DNA of 64,000 nucleotides from Siphonodentalium dalli (Eukaryota > Mollusca > Scaphopoda > Gadilida > Siphonodentaliidae). Shown here piece by piece: positions 18,453-61,430 of the stretch. Positions within the stretch are counted from its first letter, which is position 1. Every line of letters starts with the position of its first letter. Below the pieces are notes generated by a model. The model was not told the origin of the DNA. It did no database searches and saw only the letters and a list, made by a program, of their open reading frames with translations. Made by a program: the position numbers and the translations under genes. The stretch lies in the NCBI GenBank assembly GCA_032622095.1, contig CP136065.1, forward strand, positions 26,793,141-26,857,140, written 5' to 3'.

Positions 18453-18853
18453 TTAACCCTTTACCCAACAGAACGGCCCTGTGCCAATGCATTCTCTTAT
18501 ATATGCGAGTCGACCATAGGTCGCCTCGCATATATAAGAGAATGCATTGGCTTAACACATTAAAAATTATAAAATTGTTAAAGAATGTAAGAAAAAATGG
18601 TAAAAAGTGTTAAAAAAAAGATTTTTGTTAGGCCAATGCATTCTCTTATATATGCGAGGCGACCTATGATCGACTCGCATGTATAAGAGAATGCATTGGC
18701 ACAGGGCATAACTGTAACTATCACAATGTGGTCAAGGAGCCGGTTCCAATGATATCCATATGTGTATGGTTCTATTGAGACAGACCGAAGATATTTTAGG
18801 CTGTTGAAGCTTTATTTGGCCGGTTTTGGCCGGTTTGTTGGGTAAATGGTTAA
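18453..18853 (+). mobile_element. TTAA element, family M, complete copy (M3)
   Basis: TTAA at 18453-18456 and 18850-18853 flanks terminal repeats TTAACCCTTTACCCAACA and, read inward, TTAACCATTTACCCAACA. It carries two 67-base hairpins, 18484-18550 and 18633-18699; the second is the reverse complement of the first. The arms include TATATAAGAG, a TATA-box-like string. The element is almost identical to M4 (54083-54483), implying recent copying. Confidence 0.85.
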
Positions 18854-26329: not shown

Positions 26330-26695
26330 TCATACGCGCCTCATCAATGAACGCTCCGCCTCCTCGCGTGCACTGCACGCGGTGAGCAACAATGCGCGTG
26401 CGTGGATTGACGCACCGAAGGCACGTGGGCGGTACTGAGGTTCTGTCGCCGTTGGGTGACAAGATATCTGTGTGGCAGCACGCGGCGTGTTTGATGCTGT
26501 TGATTGGTCCTTATTCCAACAAACAGCACGCGACATAACAATTAGAGGCGTCAAACTGCCGTATAATTACTGAAATGAATAAAGTATTTCATAGATACCT
26601 GTCGTTGTTGGATTTAAATTCGCATATTTGCTAACTGGTCTCCATATAGTCAGAACTCACCTGTCCTAGCAGTCACGCGTCTACGTCAGTAAAAC
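26330..26695 (+). promoter_or_regulatory. Candidate proximal promoter and 5' UTR of the bHLH gene
   Basis: This stretch is markedly richer in G+C and CpG than its flanks. It holds a palindromic E-box CACGTG (26422-26427), an inverted CCAAT box (ATTGG, 26503-26507) and a weak TATA-like 'gtataatt' (26561). Atonal-family genes are often auto-regulated through E-boxes, so the E-box is plausible as a control site, but the sequence alone cannot show use. The transcription start is unknown. Confidence 0.4.
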
Positions 26696-27235
26696 ATGAC
26701 AGATTCGTGTTACAGTTATCAATACGAGAACATACGAGTCATGTCATCCTACATGGATTCGGGCTTTTGCAGAACTTCAGAAAGCAGTGTTATGTCGCCA
26801 CCAGGTGCCGGCTTGTATATTGACACCAATCCTGAGAATGCCTACAAGAATTATTCTTATTCCGATGGCGAATACACTCCAACAACTCCATATAGCGGAA
26901 GTGACGTCGGTGGAGTGCATTTTACGTTCCCCGAGATTGCAAGTAGAACAGTTTCGGCGACAGGCAACTTCGATGATTCCAAACTTGACTACAAGAACGT
27001 GAAGAAAGTTAAGGGCTCGAAGCGGAATTCGGCAGTTACGGGGAGAGATGTCATGCGCAAACGACGCTTAGCTGCTAACGCTAGAGAGCGGCGGAGGATG
27101 GAGAGTTTAAACGTTGCGTTTGACGATCTTCGTGAAGTCGTTCCGTCAATTGGGGGTGACCAGAAACTTTCCAAATACGAAACTTTGCAGATGGCACAAA
27201 GCTATATCTCTGCTCTGCAGGATTTGCTGGATTGA
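26696..27235 (+). CDS. Atonal-family bHLH transcription factor
   Basis: A single-exon, 179-residue protein with ATG at 26696 and TGA at 27233-27235. Residues 1-110 are Tyr/Ser/Pro-rich and low in complexity, as in atonal-type activators. Residues 121-178 are a complete bHLH domain: basic region [15 protein letters not shown] (121-135, Glu131 being the E-box-contacting Glu), helix 1 [14 protein letters not shown], a short loop SIGGDQ and helix 2 [30 protein letters not shown] and [12 protein letters not shown] are diagnostic of the Atonal/ATOH1/ATOH7 group. As in fly atonal, the protein ends almost exactly at the end of helix 2. Lack of introns is also common for the group. Known relatives dimerise with E-proteins (Daughterless/TCF), bind CANNTG and commit cells to sensory neuron or photoreceptor fate. 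Whether this is the atonal, ATOH1 or ATOH7 orthologue needs a tree, so I give no symbol. Confidence 0.95.
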
Positions 27236-32953: not shown

Positions 32954-33225
32954 CGTCACAATTTCACACAACATGGGTAAATGTATCACAATTACTCCCA
33001 ACCTGAGTAACTTTATCACAATCTCCCCCTACCTGGGTAACTTTATCACAATCTCCCCCAACCTGGGTAACTTTATCACAATCTCCCCCAAACTGGGTAA
33101 ATTTATCACAATCTCCCCCTACCTGGGTAACCTTATCACAATTTTACACAACACCTGGGTAACTTTATCACAATATCCCCCAAACTGGGTAAATTTAACA
33201 CAAGTTTTTGGAACGTGGGTAACTT
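32954..33225. repeat. 30-bp minisatellite
   Basis: About nine copies of a unit containing 'gggtaactttatcacaatct' and 'ccccyaacct' just outside the hAT element. Because the unit is a multiple of three it stays open in one frame and gives a spurious protein repeat NLGNFITISP. Confidence 0.9.
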
Positions 33226-34408
33226 TAATCAATAAACCTCTGCAAGAGCGACCAATTCAGCAATGTTGAGCCGTTAATATGCCTTTTCTTGTGTCATCTC
33301 TGCATGCAGCCTGTAGTGGTATATCTGACCAGATTGACATTGTTTGGTCTAGGGGAGGGGACATATCTCGATAAATGAGAGTAAGTATATAAACTGATAA
33401 ATCGCATTAGCTCCTAAAAAAAATTATAGAAGGACACTCAAGGTCGATAAATACATGAAACACCTCTACAGACTTTACATACTGTGAAAAAAAACTTACA
33501 TAACAATTATCCAACTGTTTTCTATGTTCGCTCGAGAGTGAGAAAATGCTCTTAGTTGACACAATATCGGGGTTAGAATAACAAGGAACAAGTGAGATAA
33601 ACGCTCTTTGTTCACATACCATAATACAGATGTGCTAACAATGAAACGGTCATTATTGTCACATGCTGAAGAAATTGTTGGGTTTTTTTTCGTGATTATA
33701 TGACCTTAATGGGTCTTTCTTGGTATATAAAGTTACAACCGTTTTAAAATGCATTTCACGCATTTATCGACATATTTTGATCGTCGGAACCTGACCGGGT
33801 TGGAATAAATGGGAAATCTTGACAAAGTCGTGGGTGTGAGACCACTTCGAAAGAATAGCGCTAGACACATGTCTCGCACACAACACTGAATTCCAAATGA
33901 AGCAAACTCGTCCGCAGCGTTTCAAATAATTGTGAAGTTTTTTCCAAACTTTGCTCGCTAGACAACATGTGCTATGCGTGAGTATTATAAGCGTCATTGT
34001 CAACGCTCACACAGGCAACATTTTAGTGGAATCATCTATAATTTAGCAGCTTGTGATACATCGAACTACTATACCTGTGACGAGCACCCATTATTCTGGG
34101 TCATGAACCGGTGAAAAATTCTATTCGTTTGAAGTTTTAAAGAGCATCATAGTATACCTGAAGGCAACACTCATAATTCGAAACTACGGAATGAATTCTC
34201 GAAGGCTGCCTGCCACGTGTCGGTTACTCAATAACCATATAATTTATTTATGATAGTTAACTCGATACGGTTCTGATAATTTTAAATCCTTCTCATTGGT
34301 CGCAACGGTTTGATGGCTGACCAAAACACACCGCGCGGACACGCGTCAGCACGTGGACGTCTTTCAAATATCGCATCTGATAAGTTCCCATCTTCCCATC
34401 CACGTGAT
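33226..34408. other. No supported gene
   Basis: No supported gene; a K-family scrap ('gataaacgctctttgttcac', about 33597) is the only repeat noted. Confidence 0.3.
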
Positions 34409-35388
34409 AAATGGTCTTAGAACAATAACAGTAGGGAAGCAGGAGGTCTCCATTTACATCGATCTATTGATGTGTGGGGGACTCTCTAACTTATAGTTTT
34501 CAAGTGCACCCCTCCCTAGTGTGTCAACTCCAAATCAATATTTTTGTAAACAAAACAAAACTGTTATACGGGTGTGGTGCGTGTGGAACAGACGACTATA
34601 TATGCACAATAATAATACAAAAATATTCACGAAATTCTTTAATTACATACACGTAGAAATATATACGTCATATAGAGATTCACTTACACATAATGTCATT
34701 AGGAGCCCAACAGTATACACATAATGGCATTATCTTATTTATATGGCATGCTCAACTCTCAGTGAAAGAACTTCATTTTGAAAATGTTCCCCGTAGCCGA
34801 GGTACACGTAGTTCAGATCATGTTATGATTTTTTTTTATTGATTGATTTATTGCATAAGTCACATAACAGTGAAACAAGCAAAACATATATACACTATGA
34901 GAACTATTCAACATGACGACACCCCGAACTAATAGCAAGAGGCCTTGAAACCACCGGGAAAAATTATATCAAGTGGGTGCAAACTCGAAGTCGACATTTC
35001 TTATGAAATATATGCATCAATGTACATGTATGAGACGTCTCATATTGCAGCTACTGAGCACTTTCGTTGTCACTGTGTGTGCGTCAGCACCTATAAAATG
35101 TCATATTTGGTGTATTAACACCCCTATATTTACCTCATCATGCCGTTGATCATCATCAACACTGTCACCATCATCATAATCACCACCACCATCACCACCG
35201 TCATCATTAGCATCACCACCACCATCATAATCATCTTCATCGTTGTCATTATCATCATCACCATCACCACCACCAACCCACCATCAAAATCTTCATAATT
35301 GTCACCAGCACAGTCATCATAATCGTTATTATGATCGTCATCATCATCTTCGACATTGACGCCATCAACATCACCATCATCACCATAA
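34409..35388 (+). repeat. Direct repeat A, left copy
   Basis: About 980 bp, from 'taaatggtcttagaac' to the ATC-repeat stretch ending at the left end of the 5.4-kb element. It is nearly identical to 40771-41739; by eye the differences are a handful of substitutions and small indels. At 34835-34870 'tttattgattgatttattgc' looks like the 3' tail of a LINE on the minus strand (AATAAATCAATCAATAAA). Confidence 0.9.
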
Positions 35389-36390
35389 TAGTCTGGTCGA
35401 TAAACTCAAATTTTAGGGTCAACCTAGACAAAATTTGGACTAAGTTGGTTTTTATATCATTTTGAAGAGGAAGCTCTCCTCTATAACATATCCAAAATCC
35501 GCTAAAATCCGCTTTGAGCAATTTTTGTAATTCAAGATGGCGTCCAAGATGGCTGCCATTTTCCTATAAGTCAGCTCGATGCAATTATAGTGAGAACATC
35601 TTGTCATATGTATACACTTGTATACATTTTTGTGAAGCTATGACATAACGCCATCTTTATGTGCCAAAATTGAAACTTCCCGTCTAAGATGGCCGCCAAA
35701 ATGGCGACCGGAAGTGGAATTCATACGTTTTTACTAATACTTTTAAGATAAGTTTCTGAGGTCTTGAACTGGTTGAGAATTGTGACTTTATTTTGTATAT
35801 AGCATGTTAACTGACCATTGGAACAATGAAATATGCTGTTCGTGGGGGTCCACACCCTTCCGATCACTCAAAAATTCGATTTTACAAAACGCGGTATAAC
35901 ATTTTACAAAAGATCCCCTTTGTGATTCTGGTCACATTTCACCAAGAAGTGGGAAGAACTGTGCAATGTAAGTGATCCATTCTATATCTTATTGATATTC
36001 GAACTCAATGGTACCAAAATTGTCACTTTGGCTCAAAATGGCTGTCAAAATGGCCGCCAAAATATGGAAAAATGTTAATTATTATCCCAACGTGCCATGC
36101 AACCGCTTACAAGTTATGGTGATGTACACAAATGACTATTCCGGATTATATACATTGAATACCAACATTTCTTATGCACCTTGATTAATTTTTACTATTT
36201 ACCATTCTGAAATCACCAGAATTATGGGATTTTTCTATCACAAACAGCACCAAACTCGGCAAAAAATCACTATCTTTAGTATCAAAGGTTCTTTTTATTT
36301 TGATGTGCCTTAAATATGACATAGTGTGGTGTTTTAGACAATATTACTCAAGATTACATGCAAAATGGCAACCAAATTTAGTAAAAAGTT
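35389..36390 (+). repeat. Left ~1-kb terminal inverted repeat
   Basis: Pairs with 39735-40770. It contains clustered AAGATGGC/AAAATGGC motifs at 35534-35562, 35685-35706 and 36035-36059, and an ETS-type ACCGGAAGTG at 35707-35716. All lie in the conserved parts of the arm. Confidence 0.8.
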
Positions 36391-36804
36391 TATATTCCGA
36401 ACATTATTCTCGGCTGTTCCGAAATGGTAGCAAATTGTGACTCACTTGGTTATTAAACATGCTACTTAATCAATGGACAACTTAATCTTATATTATGGTT
36501 GTCCCAAAACCTTATGGGGCACGACAAATTAATTTTACGGGATGCAGTATGAATTTTGCCGAACACCTCTTTTGGGATTATGTCCATGTTTTTTTACGGA
36601 AACGGACGGAACGTTGAACCTGAACTGACAGGTATCATATTATGTGGCTACTCTGGCCCATTAGCATCAAAATTGATTAACTTATAAACTATTGTCAGGA
36701 AACCCGTTTTCTTCACATTGCATATAACACGTAATTAATGTGGAGAACACTCTGATATTACCTCTATCGATTAACATATCCTTGAGTTATTGTGGAAAGT
36801 GATA

Positions 36805-38465
36805 GTCACACAAAGGTGCACCAGTACAAATCACACATGAGCATGCAGTCACTCCATATATACATACATAAATACCACGTAAATGGCCATGTGCCACTCG
36901 CTGTATAGACATACACCTCACCCATTACCATACAGCCACAATTGGGTTTACCCATACACCAACGCATGGTCATATAGCCGTGAATAACATTGCAGACACA
37001 CCAGGTATACTCCCACACATCACATGACCTGTATACATATTCACTACATACATGAACACACAGTAACCTCTTGTATACCTATTCGCCTAACCATAGGCCA
37101 TACAGTCACTCCATGTATATGTATTTGCCACATGCATAGCTATACAGCCACTAAATATATACACATACACCTCACCGATGACCATGCAGTCACTCCATAC
37201 ATGTTCGCTACATCCATTGTTATATATTACTTCTTGTATATCTATTTGCCTCACCAGTTGTCATACAGTCTCACTCCCTGTATATATACATATTTGCGAC
37301 ACCCATGGCCATATAGCCACTCAAGATATACATATACACCCAACCCAAAACCATAGAGTCACTCTAGGTATATACATATAACCTCACACAAGTGGCCTTA
37401 CAGCCCTTCTATATATATCAATGTCTCGTACCGCGCATATGGCCATTCATACACTCCAGACTTGCATATACACCTGACCCATGACATTTCAGCTTCTCGC
37501 TGTATACGCATAAACCACATTCGTGATCATAGTCACTCCTTGTATATCAATTCACCCCACCATTGTCATACTGTCAATCCCCATATACATATGTACATAT
37601 TGGCCGTGCCATGGCCATGTAGTCACTCATGCTATACATATACACCTCACCCATGACACAGCGTCACTCCAGGTGTGTATATATACCTCACCAATGGCCA
37701 TACAACCCTTCTAGATATACCAATACCCCGCACACACGGCCATTCGTACACTTCTGACTTGCATATACAGCTCAATCGTGACAATTCAGCCACTCGCTGT
37801 ATACATATGCACCCTCTTCACGAGCATTCAGCTAGTTACTGTATGCTTGTACACACCACCAAAGACAATACAATAGTACATATTAACATATACATCCCAT
37901 CCATCACCATGAGGTTGCTCTCTATATACACTAGCCGCCAATGGCTATCAAAGTGTACTCCAGGTATGCATATACACTTCAACAATGACCGTGCAGTCAT
38001 TCCATGTATACATATACACATTGCCCATAACCACACAACCACACCCTATTTATACATACACCCATCCATTACCATACATCCAACATGTGTATACATATAC
38101 ACCGCCCATGACAATACATCCACCCAATGTACATATGTACAGCCCACCACTGACCACACAATCACTCCATGTATACATACAGGACAGTGTAGCTGCTCTC
38201 GTTATGACCATACACCACTTCAATGACCAGACAGCCACTCACTGTAAACATGTTCACCTCACACATCAGCATACAGCTACTCCTTATATACATATGCATC
38301 TCACTATGGACATCCCATCCATGACCATATAGTCACACATTGTATAACTATTCACACCATTCATGAATACAATAGTTCCATGTATACCTACTCACATCGC
38401 CTATGACCAGACAATAGTTCCATGTATACCTACTCACATCGCCTATGACCAGACAATCAACAGAC
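36805..38465. repeat. ~42-bp minisatellite in the element core
   Basis: Roughly 38 imperfect copies built on 'catgaccatacagtcactcc' and 'atgtatacatatacacctca'. The many ORFs of 60-183 residues here, rich in His, Ile, Tyr and Thr, are unit shadows that differ by frame and strand. Confidence 0.9.
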
Positions 38466-38706
38466 ATACACACTGTATTAAGTTGATCAATGTTGATGCT
38501 AATGGACCAGAATAGCCACTTAATATGATCCATCTCAGTTCGGTTTCAACGTTCTGTCCATTTCCGTTCAAAAACAAGGAAGCTTTAGGCAAAATCCATA
38601 TTGCATTGATCAAAATGAATTTGTCATGACTCGTAGGGTACCGGGACAATCAGAATAGAACATTTAGTTGATTAAGTAGCACGTGAGTCACAATTGATTA
38701 TTTAAT

Positions 38707-38848
38707 AAATAAATACACGGTGTAGAGGTGTGTATGGTCAAGTTGTACCACAAAAAACTGATTGTAGGACTCCGCTACGCGTCGTCCTACAATCAGTTTT
38801 TTGTGGTACAACTTGACCATACACACCGATACACCGTGTATTTATTTC
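38707..38848. repeat. 142-bp long hairpin (apical-motif type)
   Basis: Arms of about 65 bp, e.g. 'tcaagttgtaccacaaaaaa', are nearly perfect. The apex on the minus strand is GACGACGCGTAGCGGAGTC, with a GC-GTA-GC turn (38774-38780). It lies in the core of the 5.4-kb element. Confidence 0.85.
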
Positions 38849-39734
38849 TTTTGTAATACGACTGAAAGTTTATGGTCACAATTCGACTGAATAGTCAACG
38901 AAATACTGCGCTTTTTCGGTCTCAGGTGAGAAAACATTTCGTGGTGTAATTCGTATTGGGCGTACTCGATTTCTTTGCATGGAGTACTCTCGTAATGTCT
39001 TGTCTTGTTATGAAATTCCCCCGTTGACTTTTCGAGGCACCTCTTCTAGAAATAATCGTTGTGATTGGCTAAAAAACGATGTGTTTTCAGCGGCGCCCGT
39101 GCGTTTCATTTAAATTGTACAGGAAATACGATGCGGTCATTTCTGTTGTGAACGTTGTTGGGACAACATGAATATGATCATCGACTATGGACCAATTTCC
39201 TTACACAAAGCGATCTAAATGATCTAGTTTACTAAACTAATCTTATTCCCCTTCTGTACTGGTGAACAAACGCTTTCATTTTCAACTTGATTCCGAAATA
39301 TCGAATATGATTTTGTCATTTAATATACTTATTAAGTAACTTTCTTTGGTCGTAACATATATCAATATACCATAACATCATTTGGACCATATTCATTGGC
39401 AACCAAACTGGTTTCAAGCGACAAATCGCTAGAAAATTCGCAAGATTGTCAAGATGTAGCAAAATTCAAAGGGGTGCGGGTGTACTCCGTTTGATGCCCC
39501 GTTTGCGCGGAGTTAGAAAAGACGGGAAAAGTCGCGTGCGGCGATCTGAATAAACCGATTGTTTTCGTGGTACAATTGGAAAAAGTAGAATTGTACCACA
39601 AAACTGGAACGAGATAGCCATGGTAACTCGAGCCACTGGCCAATCAGGACATGGCTTTTAAGCATAGTTAGGCAGGGTCGTATTACAAGTATACATATAC
39701 ACCACGTATATACACATATGTTTATGTATATAAT

Positions 39735-40770
39735 AATGTTTACCAAACTTGGTTGCCATTTTGGAAGTCATCTTGAGTAATTTTGTCTAAAACAACTCAG
39801 TGTGACACATGTAACACATATCAAAACAATAAACATCTTTGATACCAAACATAGTTCCATTTTACTTCCAAAATATGCCTCAAACCTGAACAGCGATTTT
39901 TTGCCGATTTTGATATCAGGATTGTGACAGAAAATTTCGAATAATTCTGGTAATTTCAGTGGTTAAAATAGTAACAAAATACCAAAGGTGCATCAGAAAT
40001 GTTAGTACTCAAGCTATATAAGACATACTAGTCAACTGTGTGCATCACCCTGGCTTGTAAGCGGTTGCGTGGCACGCTGGGATAATAATTACCATTTTCC
40101 ATATTTTGGTGGCCATATTGGCAGCCATTTTGAGCCAAAGTGACAATTTTGGTACCTTTGAATTCGAATATCAATAAGATATAGAATGGATCAGTTACAT
40201 TGCATTGCACAGTTCTTCCCACTTCTTGGTGAAATATGATTAGAATCTTGGGGATCTTTTGCGAAATGTTATACCGCGTTTTGTAAAATCGATTTTTTGA
40301 GTGATCAGAAGGGGTGTGGACCTCACGAACAGCATATTTCATTGCTCCAATTGTCAGTTAACATGCTATATATAAAATAAAGCCCAAATTCTCAACCAGT
40401 TCCAAACCACGGACACTTATCTTAAAGATATTGTTAAAAAAACGTAAAAAATCCACTTCCGGTCGCCATTTTAGCGGCCATCTTGGACGGGGAGTTCCAA
40501 TTGTGGCACATAAAGGTGGCGTTATGTCTTAGCTTCACAAAAATGTATACATGTGTATATATATGACAAGATGTTCTCACTATAATTGCATCAAGCTGAC
40601 TTATATGAAAATGGCAGCCATCTTGGACGCCATCTTGAATTACAAAAATTGCTCAAAGCGGATTTTAGCGGATTTTGGATATGTTATGGAGGATATATTC
40701 CTCTTCAAAATGATATACAAACCAACTTAGTCCAAATTTGTTCTAGGTCAAACCTTTTATCGACCAGACT
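39735..40770 (-). repeat. Right ~1-kb terminal inverted repeat
   Basis: Inverted partner of 35389-36390. It has the matching motif clusters at 40109-40135, 40452-40486 (including CACTTCCGGT, the reversed ETS site) and 40609-40639. Confidence 0.8.
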
Positions 40771-41739
40771 AAATGGTCTTAGAACAATAACAGTAGGGAA
40801 GCAGGAGGTCTCCATTTACATCGATCTATTGATGTGTGGGGGACTCTCTAACTTATAGTTTTCAAGTGCACCCCTCCCTATAGTGTGTCAACTCCAAATC
40901 AATATTTTTGTAAACAAAACAAAACTGTTATACGGGTGTGGTGCGTGTGGAACAGACGACTATATATGCACAATAATAATAAAAAAATATTCACGAAATT
41001 CTTTAATTACATACACGTAGAAATATATACGTCATATAGAGATTCACTTACACATAATGCCATTAGGAGCCCAACAGTATACACATAATGGCATTATCTT
41101 ATTTATATGGCATGCTCAACTCTCAGTGAAAGAACTTCATTTTGAAAATGTTCCCCGTAGCCGAGGTACACGTAGTTCAGATCATGTTATGATTTTTTTT
41201 TTATTGATTGATTTATTGCATAAGTCACATAACAGTGAAACAAGCAAAACATATATACACTATGAGAACTATTCAACATGACGACACCCCGAACTAATAG
41301 CAAGAGGCCTTGAAACCACCGGGAAAAATTATATCAAGTGGGTGCAAACTCGAAGTCGACATTTCTTATGAAATATATGCATCAATGTACATGTATGAGA
41401 CGTCTCATATTGCAGCTACTGAGCACTTTCGTTGTCACTGTGTGTGCGTCAGCACCTATAAAATGTCATATTTGGTGTATTAACACCCCTATATTTACCT
41501 CATCATGCCGTTGATCATCATCAACACTGTCACCATCAACATAATCACCACCACCATCACCACCGTCATCATTAGCATCACCACCACCATCATAATCATC
41601 TTCATCGTTGTCATTATCATCATCACCACCACCAACCCACCATCAAAATCTTCATAATTGTCACCAGCACAGTCATCATAATCGTTATCATGATCGTCAT
41701 CATCATCTTCGACATTGACGTCATCAACATCACCATAAT
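40771..41739 (+). repeat. Direct repeat A, right copy
   Basis: Starts immediately after the right end of the 5.4-kb element and matches 34409-35388 throughout. It stops inside the (ATC)n tract, which here continues to about 41950. Confidence 0.9.
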
Positions 41740-41950
41740 CATCATCGTCATCATCACCGAACCTCATGATCATCATCATTTTCAACATCATCGTCGTCGT
41801 CATCATCATCTTCTTCATTAACATCATCATTATCGTCATGATCTTCGTCATCAACATCATCAGCATCATCGTCATCGTAATCGTCATCAGCATCAACATC
41901 ATCATCTTCATCATCATCATCACCATCATCATAATCATTTCATCATCAGT
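41495..41950. repeat. (ATC)n-type microsatellite
   Basis: Imperfect atc/gtc triplet run. Its first 245 bases belong to direct repeat A. The Met/Asp-rich 155-residue ORF on the minus strand is an artefact. Confidence 0.9.
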
Positions 41951-43887: not shown

Positions 43888-44448
43888 GGTCAATTAAATG
43901 AAATTGTTCCCAATGCCTCAATTCACAAACAAATAAATGACATTAAAATCAAATTGAAAGAAAGCCACATAGAGAATTATAAAACTGATATTTTCAACGA
44001 TGACAAATGTTCGGGCGCGGATAAGTTAAGGACGTACCGTGTAGTCAAACAACATTATACACAAGAACCTTATCTTAATATTGTCCAGAATATCGACACA
44101 AAAATTATGTTTTGTAAACTAAGAATTAGTAATCATAACTTCGAAATTGAAAAGGGTCGCCATAAACAGCCAAAAGTGTCACTTGATGAAATAATTTGTA
44201 GGAAATGTAACATGGAGGTTGAGAATGAAGAACACTTCCTTATGCGCTGCAACACATATGATAAGATGCGTAAACACTTCTTTTGTGAGATAGGGATGAT
44301 GAGTGATAAATTTATTGGATTGAATGATGGCCAAAAATTCCAATATATAATGCAAAATAACGAGCCTCATACATGCAACATAATCTGCAACATGGTCCGG
44401 ACATTTTTCAAAGAAAGGTCAGATTCTGCTGATATAATAATGAAATAG
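43888..44448 (+). pseudogene. LINE reverse-transcriptase C-terminal fragment with 3' tail
   Basis: An open frame from 43888 (after TAG at 43885-43887) to TAG at 44446-44448. It contains KIMFCKLRISNHNFEIEKGR, ICRKCNMEVENEEHFLMRC and TYDKMRKHFF, the terminal LR-x-SNH and C-x2-C...EEHFLMRC motif of a non-LTR retrotransposon. The fragment is about 186 residues and intact, yet no RT core precedes it, so it is a 5'-truncated insertion. The sequence to about 44560 looks like its 3' UTR, ending 'attaaactatctatctact'. The lowest-numbered part has no ATG, which fits a truncated copy. Confidence 0.75.
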
Positions 44449-53964: not shown

Positions 53965-54600
53965 ATGCAGATACATTTTATTTATGCATGTTCCCGTTCA
54001 TATTCAGGAACAATATAGTTTTCTACGACGAAATGCCTACAAAAACTTACTGTGCAAACTTGCGAGTTTATGAACGTTCCATTTAACCCTTTACCCAACA
54101 GAACGGCCCTGTGCCAATGCATTCTCTTATATATGCGAGTCGACCATAGGTCGCCTCGCATATATAAGAGAATGCATTGGCTTAACAAATTAAAAATTAT
54201 AAAATTGTTAAAGAATGTAAGAAAAAATGGTAAAAATTGTTAAAAAAAGATTTTTTTTTAGGCCAATGCATTCTCTTATATATGCGAGGCGACCTATGGT
54301 CGACTCGCATATATAAGAGAATACATTGGCACAGGGTATAACTGTAACTATCACAATGTGGTCAAGGAGCCGGTTCCAATGATATCCATATTTGTATGGT
54401 TCTATTGAGACAGACCGAAGATATTTTAGGCTGTTGAAGCTTTATTTGGCCGGTTTTGGCCGGTTTGTTGGGTAAAGGGTTAAAAGGGTACGTTCATACA
54501 CTGGCAAGTTTGCACGGTATGGTTTGCAGGCATTTCGTCGTAGAAAACGATATGGTGCCAGAATATGGACGGAAACAAGCATATAAAATGCATCTGTACC
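53965..54600. repeat. Imperfect palindrome hosting M4
   Basis: The left flank of M4 (about 53965-54080, with 'ttttctacgacgaaatgcct') is the inverted counterpart of the right flank (54485-54600, with 'aggcatttcgtcgtagaaaa'). M4 therefore occupies the loop or centre of an older foldback sequence. Confidence 0.75.
54083..54483 (+). mobile_element. TTAA element, family M, complete copy (M4)
   Basis: TTAA at 54083-54086 and 54480-54483; 401 bp, the same length as M3 and almost identical to it. Hairpins at 54114-54180 and 54263-54329. The right end read inward is TTAACCCTTTACCCAACA, matching the left end. Confidence 0.85.
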
Positions 54601-60793: not shown

Positions 60794-61043
60794 ACATCCA
60801 AACTATTACATGATGTCAGCCCGAAATGTGCTGCGAACATTTCATGGAATACTAATAGTCCACATCCATGCATGGACATCACGCGTCTACATACATGATA
60901 TGTATTTGCCAAATGCACATAATATAATAGAATCAAGCATGAACTGAGCATACTCACAGATGGTTATTCTACGATAATAATTACATCGCACATAATCCAC
61001 AAAACTCGAGAGATAGAACTGTTCATATCGTAATGAACATTCT

Positions 61044-61430
61044 TTAACTCTTTACCCAACAGAAGGGCCCTGTGCCAATGCATTCTCTTATATATGCGAG
61101 TCGACCATAGGTCGCCTCGCATATATAAGAGAATGCATTGGCTTAACACATTAAAAATGATAAAATTGTTAAAGAATGTGAGAAAAAATGGTAAAAAAGT
61201 GTTAAAAATAGATTTTTTTAGGCCAATGCATTCTCTTATATATGCGAGGCGACCTATGGTCGACTCGCATATATAAGAGAATGCATTGGCACAGGGCATA
61301 ACTGTAACTATCACAATGTGGTCAAGGAGGCGGTTCCAATGATATCCATATTTGTATGGTTCTATTGAGACAGACCGAAGATATTTTAGGCTGTTGAAGC
61401 TTTATTTGGCCGGTTTTGGCCGGTTTGTTG
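61044..61430 (+). mobile_element. TTAA element, family M, 3'-clipped (M5)
   Basis: Left TTAA 61044-61047, hairpins at 61075-61141 and 61223-61289, very similar to M3 and M4. It stops at 'ggccggtttgttg', about 13 bases short of the expected right end. The matching empty site is TTAA at 58497-58500 in the left arm; the clip also removed 'ttcataata'-like flank. Confidence 0.8.

Follow-up and report, generated by a model that had tools for sequence, protein, structure and literature searches.

In P-element hybrid element insertion, a direct duplication of flanking DNA abuts the element and ends at its termini (Gray 1996 and Preston 1996, as cited in later papers). Alternative transposition of the maize Ac/Ds elements also places its endpoints at transposon termini and leaves an unmatched target flank (PMC3744419, PMC4270019): nine tandem duplications have endpoints that coincide with Ac termini, and natural dhAT cases carry repeats of 1262 and 1257 bp (96% identity), their second element having an unmatched flank (PMC3744419). 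Hybrid element insertion with rearrangement of the flanks has been described (PMC3744419, PMC2775673) and has been used to make deletions (PMC3439972), and a fungal element is accompanied by duplications and deletions of its flanking regions (PMC10853768). Among foldback elements, Galileo produces inversions by ectopic recombination, hybrid element insertion being discussed as well (PMC2775673), an FB-mediated inversion by ectopic recombination is known (PMC7642927), and Tetris combines a foldback structure with tandem repeats and target site duplications (TSDs) of 8-10 bp (PMC4079207). The PMC papers are cited, here and below, for what excerpts of them state. Here, we describe a locus in a 64-kb stretch of contig CP136065.1 (the window, 64,000 nucleotides analysed as a whole) in which a 5.38-kb foldback-type element, E, is bracketed by two direct copies of a ~0.97-kb host segment, A. 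Most probably, a transposon made the flanking duplication; rearrangements of this kind are known, and the one here involves a foldback element. The parts of the locus are ordinary and their combination is uncommon. Word searches in open-licence papers found no foldback elements with kilobase direct repeats.

Host segment A and the ends of element E

The order at the locus is F1-A1-E-A2-F2, where F1 and F2 are the host flanks. F1 (33409-34408, unstranded) ends in CACGTGAT, directly against A1, and its sole match elsewhere in the window, among the matches listed by self-comparison, is weak and 82 nt long. The left copy, A1 (34409-35388, + strand), consists of ~740 bp of unique sequence followed by ~240 bp of an imperfect (ATC)n array that is cut off by E, and the right copy, A2 (+ strand), extends from 40771 to 41739, or to 41745 by BLAST. 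At the start of F2 (41740-41948, + strand), the array runs on beyond A2, and this continuation is absent after A1. In the BLAST alignment of 34408-35386 with 40770-41745, 966/982 positions are identical, with 9 gap columns. The sequence-only reading from which this analysis started had proposed a 5.4-kb foldback element between almost identical direct repeats of ~0.97 kb; BLAST and the junctions place these features within a few bases of where it had put them, and the near-identity of the copies is borne out by the alignment. A 980-bp repeat at 98% identity is not attributable to chance, and A is the only long near-identical host duplication among the matches listed in the self-comparison of the window, where the other close pairs resemble interspersed repeats. 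The window contains no N. Substitutions are unevenly spread in A, with 2 in the 740 sites of the unique part (and 2 gap events) and 5 in the 232 sites of the (ATC)n part (and one 6-nt gap); an unstable repeat would account for the excess in the array (Fisher p 0.010).

Element E (35390-40770, unstranded) runs from AGTCTGGTCGATAAA to its exact reverse complement, TTTATCGACCAGACT, so that its 15 terminal bases are exactly inverted, as the sequence-only reading had it. When up to 3 mismatches are allowed, this 15-mer has 3 matches in the window, two of which are exact and are the ends of E, and ~1.9 would be expected by chance; it is therefore its pairing with 1-kb arms that carries weight, and not the 15-mer alone. 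The left terminal inverted repeat (TIR) arm (35390-36395, + strand) pairs with the right arm (39728-40770, - strand), each being ~1.0 kb long. The arms are 82.5% identical by BLAST and differ by 109 substitutions in 987 sites (24/318 in the outer, 29/334 in the middle and 56/319 in the inner block), for which an earlier estimate by eye of 10-15% was fair.

The junctions define the edges closely. F1/A1 reads CACGTGAT|AAATGG, so A1 begins at 34409, and E/A2 reads CCAGACT|AAATGG, so A2 begins at 40771. On the other side of each copy, A1/E reads CACCATAAT|AGTCTGG and A2/F2, under a gapped reading, CACCATAAT|CATCATCG. E is thus flush between the copies within ~3 nt at both edges: 0-3 nt separate the end of A1 from E, the BLAST reading leaving AAT between them. 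The right edge of A falls in a trinucleotide array and is for that reason known to ~6 nt only (near 41739 under the gapped reading, 41745 by BLAST). The proposal that A abuts both termini without a gap therefore stands to within ~3 nt, but the right edge is not base-sharp. Tandem Repeats Finder (TRF) traces the array over 41514-41948 on the right and over 35149-35348 only on the left; it is therefore continuous from A2 into F2 and broken by E after A1. On this ground we take A2-F2 as the older arrangement, and A2 plus the right flank looks like the original order. In the sequence read, neither F1|A1 nor A2|F2 shows a doubled target or a footprint.

We also compared the two flanks of E for exact direct repeats of 2-11 bp, allowing an offset of 0-2 on each side. 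None of 4-11 bp was found at these offsets, and the flanks agree only as 2-mers and 3-mers (AA, TA, AAT and TAA). The only flush symmetric option is a TA/TA reading, with E as GTCTGG...CCAGAC; flush TA on both sides would be expected of an ordinary Tc1/mariner-like insertion. The duplication of A may mask a short TSD of E.

The difference between the copies of A gives some measure of age. Between the copies of A, the unique part has diverged much less than the outer block of the arms (Fisher p ~3e-11). Its 2/740 corresponds to a Poisson 95% range of ~0.03-1.0%; this sets a limit on how old the duplication is, unless A1 and A2 derive from two homologues, in which case it is an allelic difference. 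The arm divergence (109/987) dates the palindrome and not the insertion of E: foldback arms diverge from the time the palindrome forms, also in earlier host sites, and are therefore no insertion clock. Dating the duplication against the arms was dropped as invalid. The view that the duplication is much younger than the arms is thus right numerically, but it is no proof that E had been in place for long when A was duplicated.

How the duplication may have arisen

The left end of E lies on the right edge of A and its right end on the left edge, an arrangement that one normally nicked insertion cannot produce. The match of the duplication edges to the termini of E within ~3 nt favours the joining of the two ends at two sites, an exchange between two copies of E, gap repair (at one end) or a long TSD over a random duplication. 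Because both edges fall at TIR termini, the breaks would have been set by the element ends; replication slippage and ordinary unequal exchange are less apt, since neither need stop there. A flanking direct duplication with an edge at an element terminus is the mark of alternative transposition or hybrid element insertion, and it is present here at both edges (~3 nt). We therefore tentatively favour, at somewhat less than even chances, a transposition that went irregularly: each end of E would have been joined to a position of its own, ~0.97 kb from the other, and A thereby duplicated.

In such an event, the left end of E would have been joined at one host position and the right end ~0.97 kb upstream. 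In the version that we prefer, hybrid element insertion or alternative transposition between sister chromatids, E would first have resided at one edge of A, such as A|F2 in the (ATC)n array. Once the region had replicated, transposase would have brought together the right end of one copy of E and the left end of its sister-chromatid copy, and this pair would have been joined at F1|A on a chromatid or homologue nearby that carried no E. The products would be F1-A-E-A-F2, which is the order present here, and F1-E-F2, which is not seen; transposase, chromatids, order of events and reciprocal deletion would all belong to this scheme, whose derivation of a direct duplication from chromatids is our own proposal after the published P-element one. 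Two-site joining would be expected to leave no shared 4-11 bp repeat between the ends of E, each end having its own target, and the lack of a doubled target or footprint at F1|A1 and A2|F2 is as for an unoccupied recipient. The array is uninterrupted across A2/F2. The slight difference between A1 and A2 (2/740 and 5/232) fits copies from homologues or a recent event.

The likeness to the experimental systems is incomplete, and several points weigh against two-site joining. No second copy of E, transposase, reciprocal deletion or empty (donor) allele is seen in the 64-kb window, a difference from P-element hybrid element insertion. The maize dhAT repeats (~1.26 kb) are similar in size to A; however, the maize duplications begin with a second element copy, whereas no element precedes A1, and the maize junctions show 8-bp TSDs, of which no counterpart of 4-11 bp was found at E. 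According to excerpts of PMC3744419, sister-chromatid transposition in maize yields inverted duplications and deletions of the flanks; a direct duplication such as that of A would therefore rest on the P-element type of geometry, or on a reversed-ends transposition followed by the loss of one copy. The authors of PMC7642927 state, in the part cited, that to their knowledge no inversion in the wild has come from hybrid element insertion, which suggests that products of this reaction are perhaps rare in nature. Finally, the statement that E has no TSD holds only as far as a family TSD of at least 4 bp is assumed. With a family TSD of TA, the flush TA/TA would simply be such a TSD and two-site joining would fail, because A|F2 in A2 (CACCATAATCATC) has no TA at the required place.

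The geometry of the locus is also that of one very long TSD, as the sequence-only reading had remarked, but two-site joining, or an unequal crossover involving two insertions, gives this geometry as well. Published precedents exist for both, and we know of none for a 0.97-kb TSD of a TIR transposon. TIR transposases are known to duplicate ~2-11 bp, and melting or displacing ~1 kb of target, as a single insertion with far-apart nicks and fill-in would demand, has no known basis for such an element. Unusually long TSDs occur in some site-specific retroelements (Gladyshev and Arkhipova 2009, from its title), but E is structurally not a retroelement and the present case is a single instance. A true TSD of ~970 bp is the least supported reading and very improbable. 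The sequence-only reading had also named unequal exchange and an assembly error as possible causes. In an unequal crossover, one homologue would have carried E at A|F2 and the other, after a local hop, at F1|A; a homologous exchange within E, making it chimeric, would then yield the identical sequence and identical unmatched target flanks. Chromosome rearrangements due to ectopic recombination between Galileo or FB foldbacks, with TSDs exchanged, are on record (PMC2775673, PMC7642927), and a difference between the arms of one copy (109/987 here) has been taken in Galileo as a sign of a chimera. Yet arm divergence alone does not prove E chimeric, and E would have had to insert twice independently, 1 kb apart and on separate homologues; we regard such a crossover as possible and rather unlikely. 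Misassembly, in which two haplotypes carrying E on opposite sides of A were merged by way of the shared E and A was thereby doubled, is to our minds about as doubtful: graph errors are precise at repeat boundaries and the copies of A differ at an allelic level, but the window has no N, and A stands alone in it as a long near-identical host duplication among the matches listed. Even then, each edge of A must carry E in one of the haplotypes, and the insertions themselves would be real.

The single T shared at A1/E, or TA on both sides if the family uses TA, would suit an aborted gap repair. In that case, F1|A would have been the site of E, and repair of a break at the left end of the element would have drawn on an empty homologue or sister: the F1 end would have copied ~980 bp of A, halted in the (ATC)n array and been joined to the left end of E. 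That A1 terminates inside a repetitive array, a plausible stopping place, is in keeping with this course, and aborted re-replication joined by non-homologous end joining has been described in maize (PMC4270019). For single-copy Pack-TIRs of animals, which mostly lie within 15 kb of their source, the preferred explanation is gap filling with microhomology (PMC8277862), and there too nearby host sequence is copied beside a TIR element. However, one shared base is weak evidence, Pack-TIR breakpoints are skewed to the element interior and not to the ends (PMC8277862), whereas E retains its terminal bases, and the Pack-TIR copy lies inside the element, whereas the copy of A lies outside E, flush with its terminus. 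We consider this repair improbable, on a par with crossover and misassembly. The same TA bears on a further possibility, namely that E inserted by chance at the junction of an older A-A tandem, with TA as target and duplicated; the flush reading is then TA-[GTCTGG...CCAGAC]-TA, and the A-A junction would contain that TA. A random landing <=3 nt from the junction has p = 0.0036, or 1 in 160 TA sites, and unless the junction attracts insertion this makes the older tandem quite unlikely, more so than the repair.

If two-site joining of the ends of E is the true course, a foldback element in what is apparently an animal genome has here left the natural counterpart of a reaction otherwise studied chiefly in P-element experiments and maize genetics. 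Excerpts of PMC7642927 say that foldbacks might be expected to produce inversions by hybrid element insertion, and a direct duplication edged at the element ends is the sister product of such an inversion. The F1-A-E-A-F2 signature can be searched in bulk across assembled genomes. That the family habitually joins its ends ~1 kb apart as its normal mode is extremely unlikely; a kilobase duplication at every insertion would, if true, be a new mode of transposition, which the present data do not require.

Composition and affinity of element E

The long inverted arms (~1.0 kb each) form a large part of the 5.38 kb of E, which marks a foldback element, and one copy is present in the window (by the 15-mer search and, among the matches listed, by self-comparison). 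Pfam returned no family at an E-value <=0.01 in any of the 29 stop-to-stop frames of >=60 aa that overlap it (29/29), and E is therefore a non-autonomous foldback-type DNA transposon. Like FB, Galileo and Tetris (PMC2775673, PMC7642927, PMC4079207), it has long arms, is non-coding, has a modular middle with tandem repeats and is linked to a rearrangement. Unlike theirs, its tandem repeats are central, between inner inverted repeats, and not in the arms, and their 7-10 bp TSD is not visible at E.

Inside the arms, an inner inverted repeat (left part 36457-36684, + strand; right part 38479-38684, - strand; 73% identity) brackets a degenerate 42-bp minisatellite at the centre of E (36809-38460, + strand; direct-repeat families D2, D3 and D8, 42-bp rows in TRF). 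The inner inverted repeats and minisatellite together (36457-38684) may be a second, older element nested in E. Next to them lies a near-perfect hairpin (38697-38857, unstranded) with 79-nt arms that are 90% complementary and 3 nt apart; its predicted DNA fold has -73.9 kcal/mol (z -19.7), and it is possibly a nested miniature element. By eye, TTGTAATACGAC (38850-38861) and its inverse GTCGTATTACAAG (~39674-39686) lie face to face in the right, asymmetric part of E, possibly as the ends of another nested element. Counted on both strands of the window, three short motifs are concentrated in E: AAGATGGC, with 7/7 exact sites of the window inside E, and AAAATGGC, with 9/11, are both dense in the arms, and the 2 window sites of CCGGAAGT both lie in E. 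We take the arm motifs to resemble YY1 and ETS binding sites, and they are perhaps promoter-like signals.

Two other affinities were considered and rejected. Vertebrate Polinton/Maverick ends follow (AGT)2...(ACT)2 or (AG)3...(CT)3 in the excerpt cited (PMC8097293); E starts with AGTCTG and ends with CAGACT, an agreement limited to the first AGT/ACT, and polymerase, integrase and capsid genes were not matched by Pfam in its 29 frames. E may at most be a gutted derivative of a Polinton/Maverick. The copies of A do not behave as the long terminal repeats of one retroelement either, which would be bounded at both genomic edges, adjoin a primer-binding site and a polypurine tract, and have an element-size TSD outside them: the array extends past A2 into F2, inverted repeats adjoin the inner edges of A, a purine tract before A2 is absent by eye, and no repeat of 5-11 bp was found near the edges of the A-E-A block. 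No mention of the terminal 15-mer was found in print. An exact arm 25-mer matched 0 stretches in viral contigs and 0 in prokaryote ones, in a search that possibly did not cover records of the own genome; its absence from such contigs is expected for an animal sequence.

Other features of the window

A tRNA scan and Rfam returned 0 genes and 0 matches, respectively. Outside the locus, an open frame at 26693-27235 encodes a helix-loop-helix domain (PF00010, E-value 1.2e-20), with NeuroD1 as the closest solved chain, and is a proneural-type basic helix-loop-helix exon; together with the repeat content, it suggests animal DNA. To the right of the locus, a frame at 43888-44448 without a Pfam match ends in a CxxC...HxxxxC-like stretch, which to us recalls the C-terminus of long interspersed nuclear element (LINE) proteins. 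A tandem array of a 30-bp unit (ACCTGGGTAACTTTATCACAATCTCCCCC, family D5) lies at 33001-33227, just left of F1. An interspersed repeat of ~400 bp occurs at 18453-18853, 54070-54483 and 61033-61430, in copies that are 96-97% identical and show internal inverted similarity.

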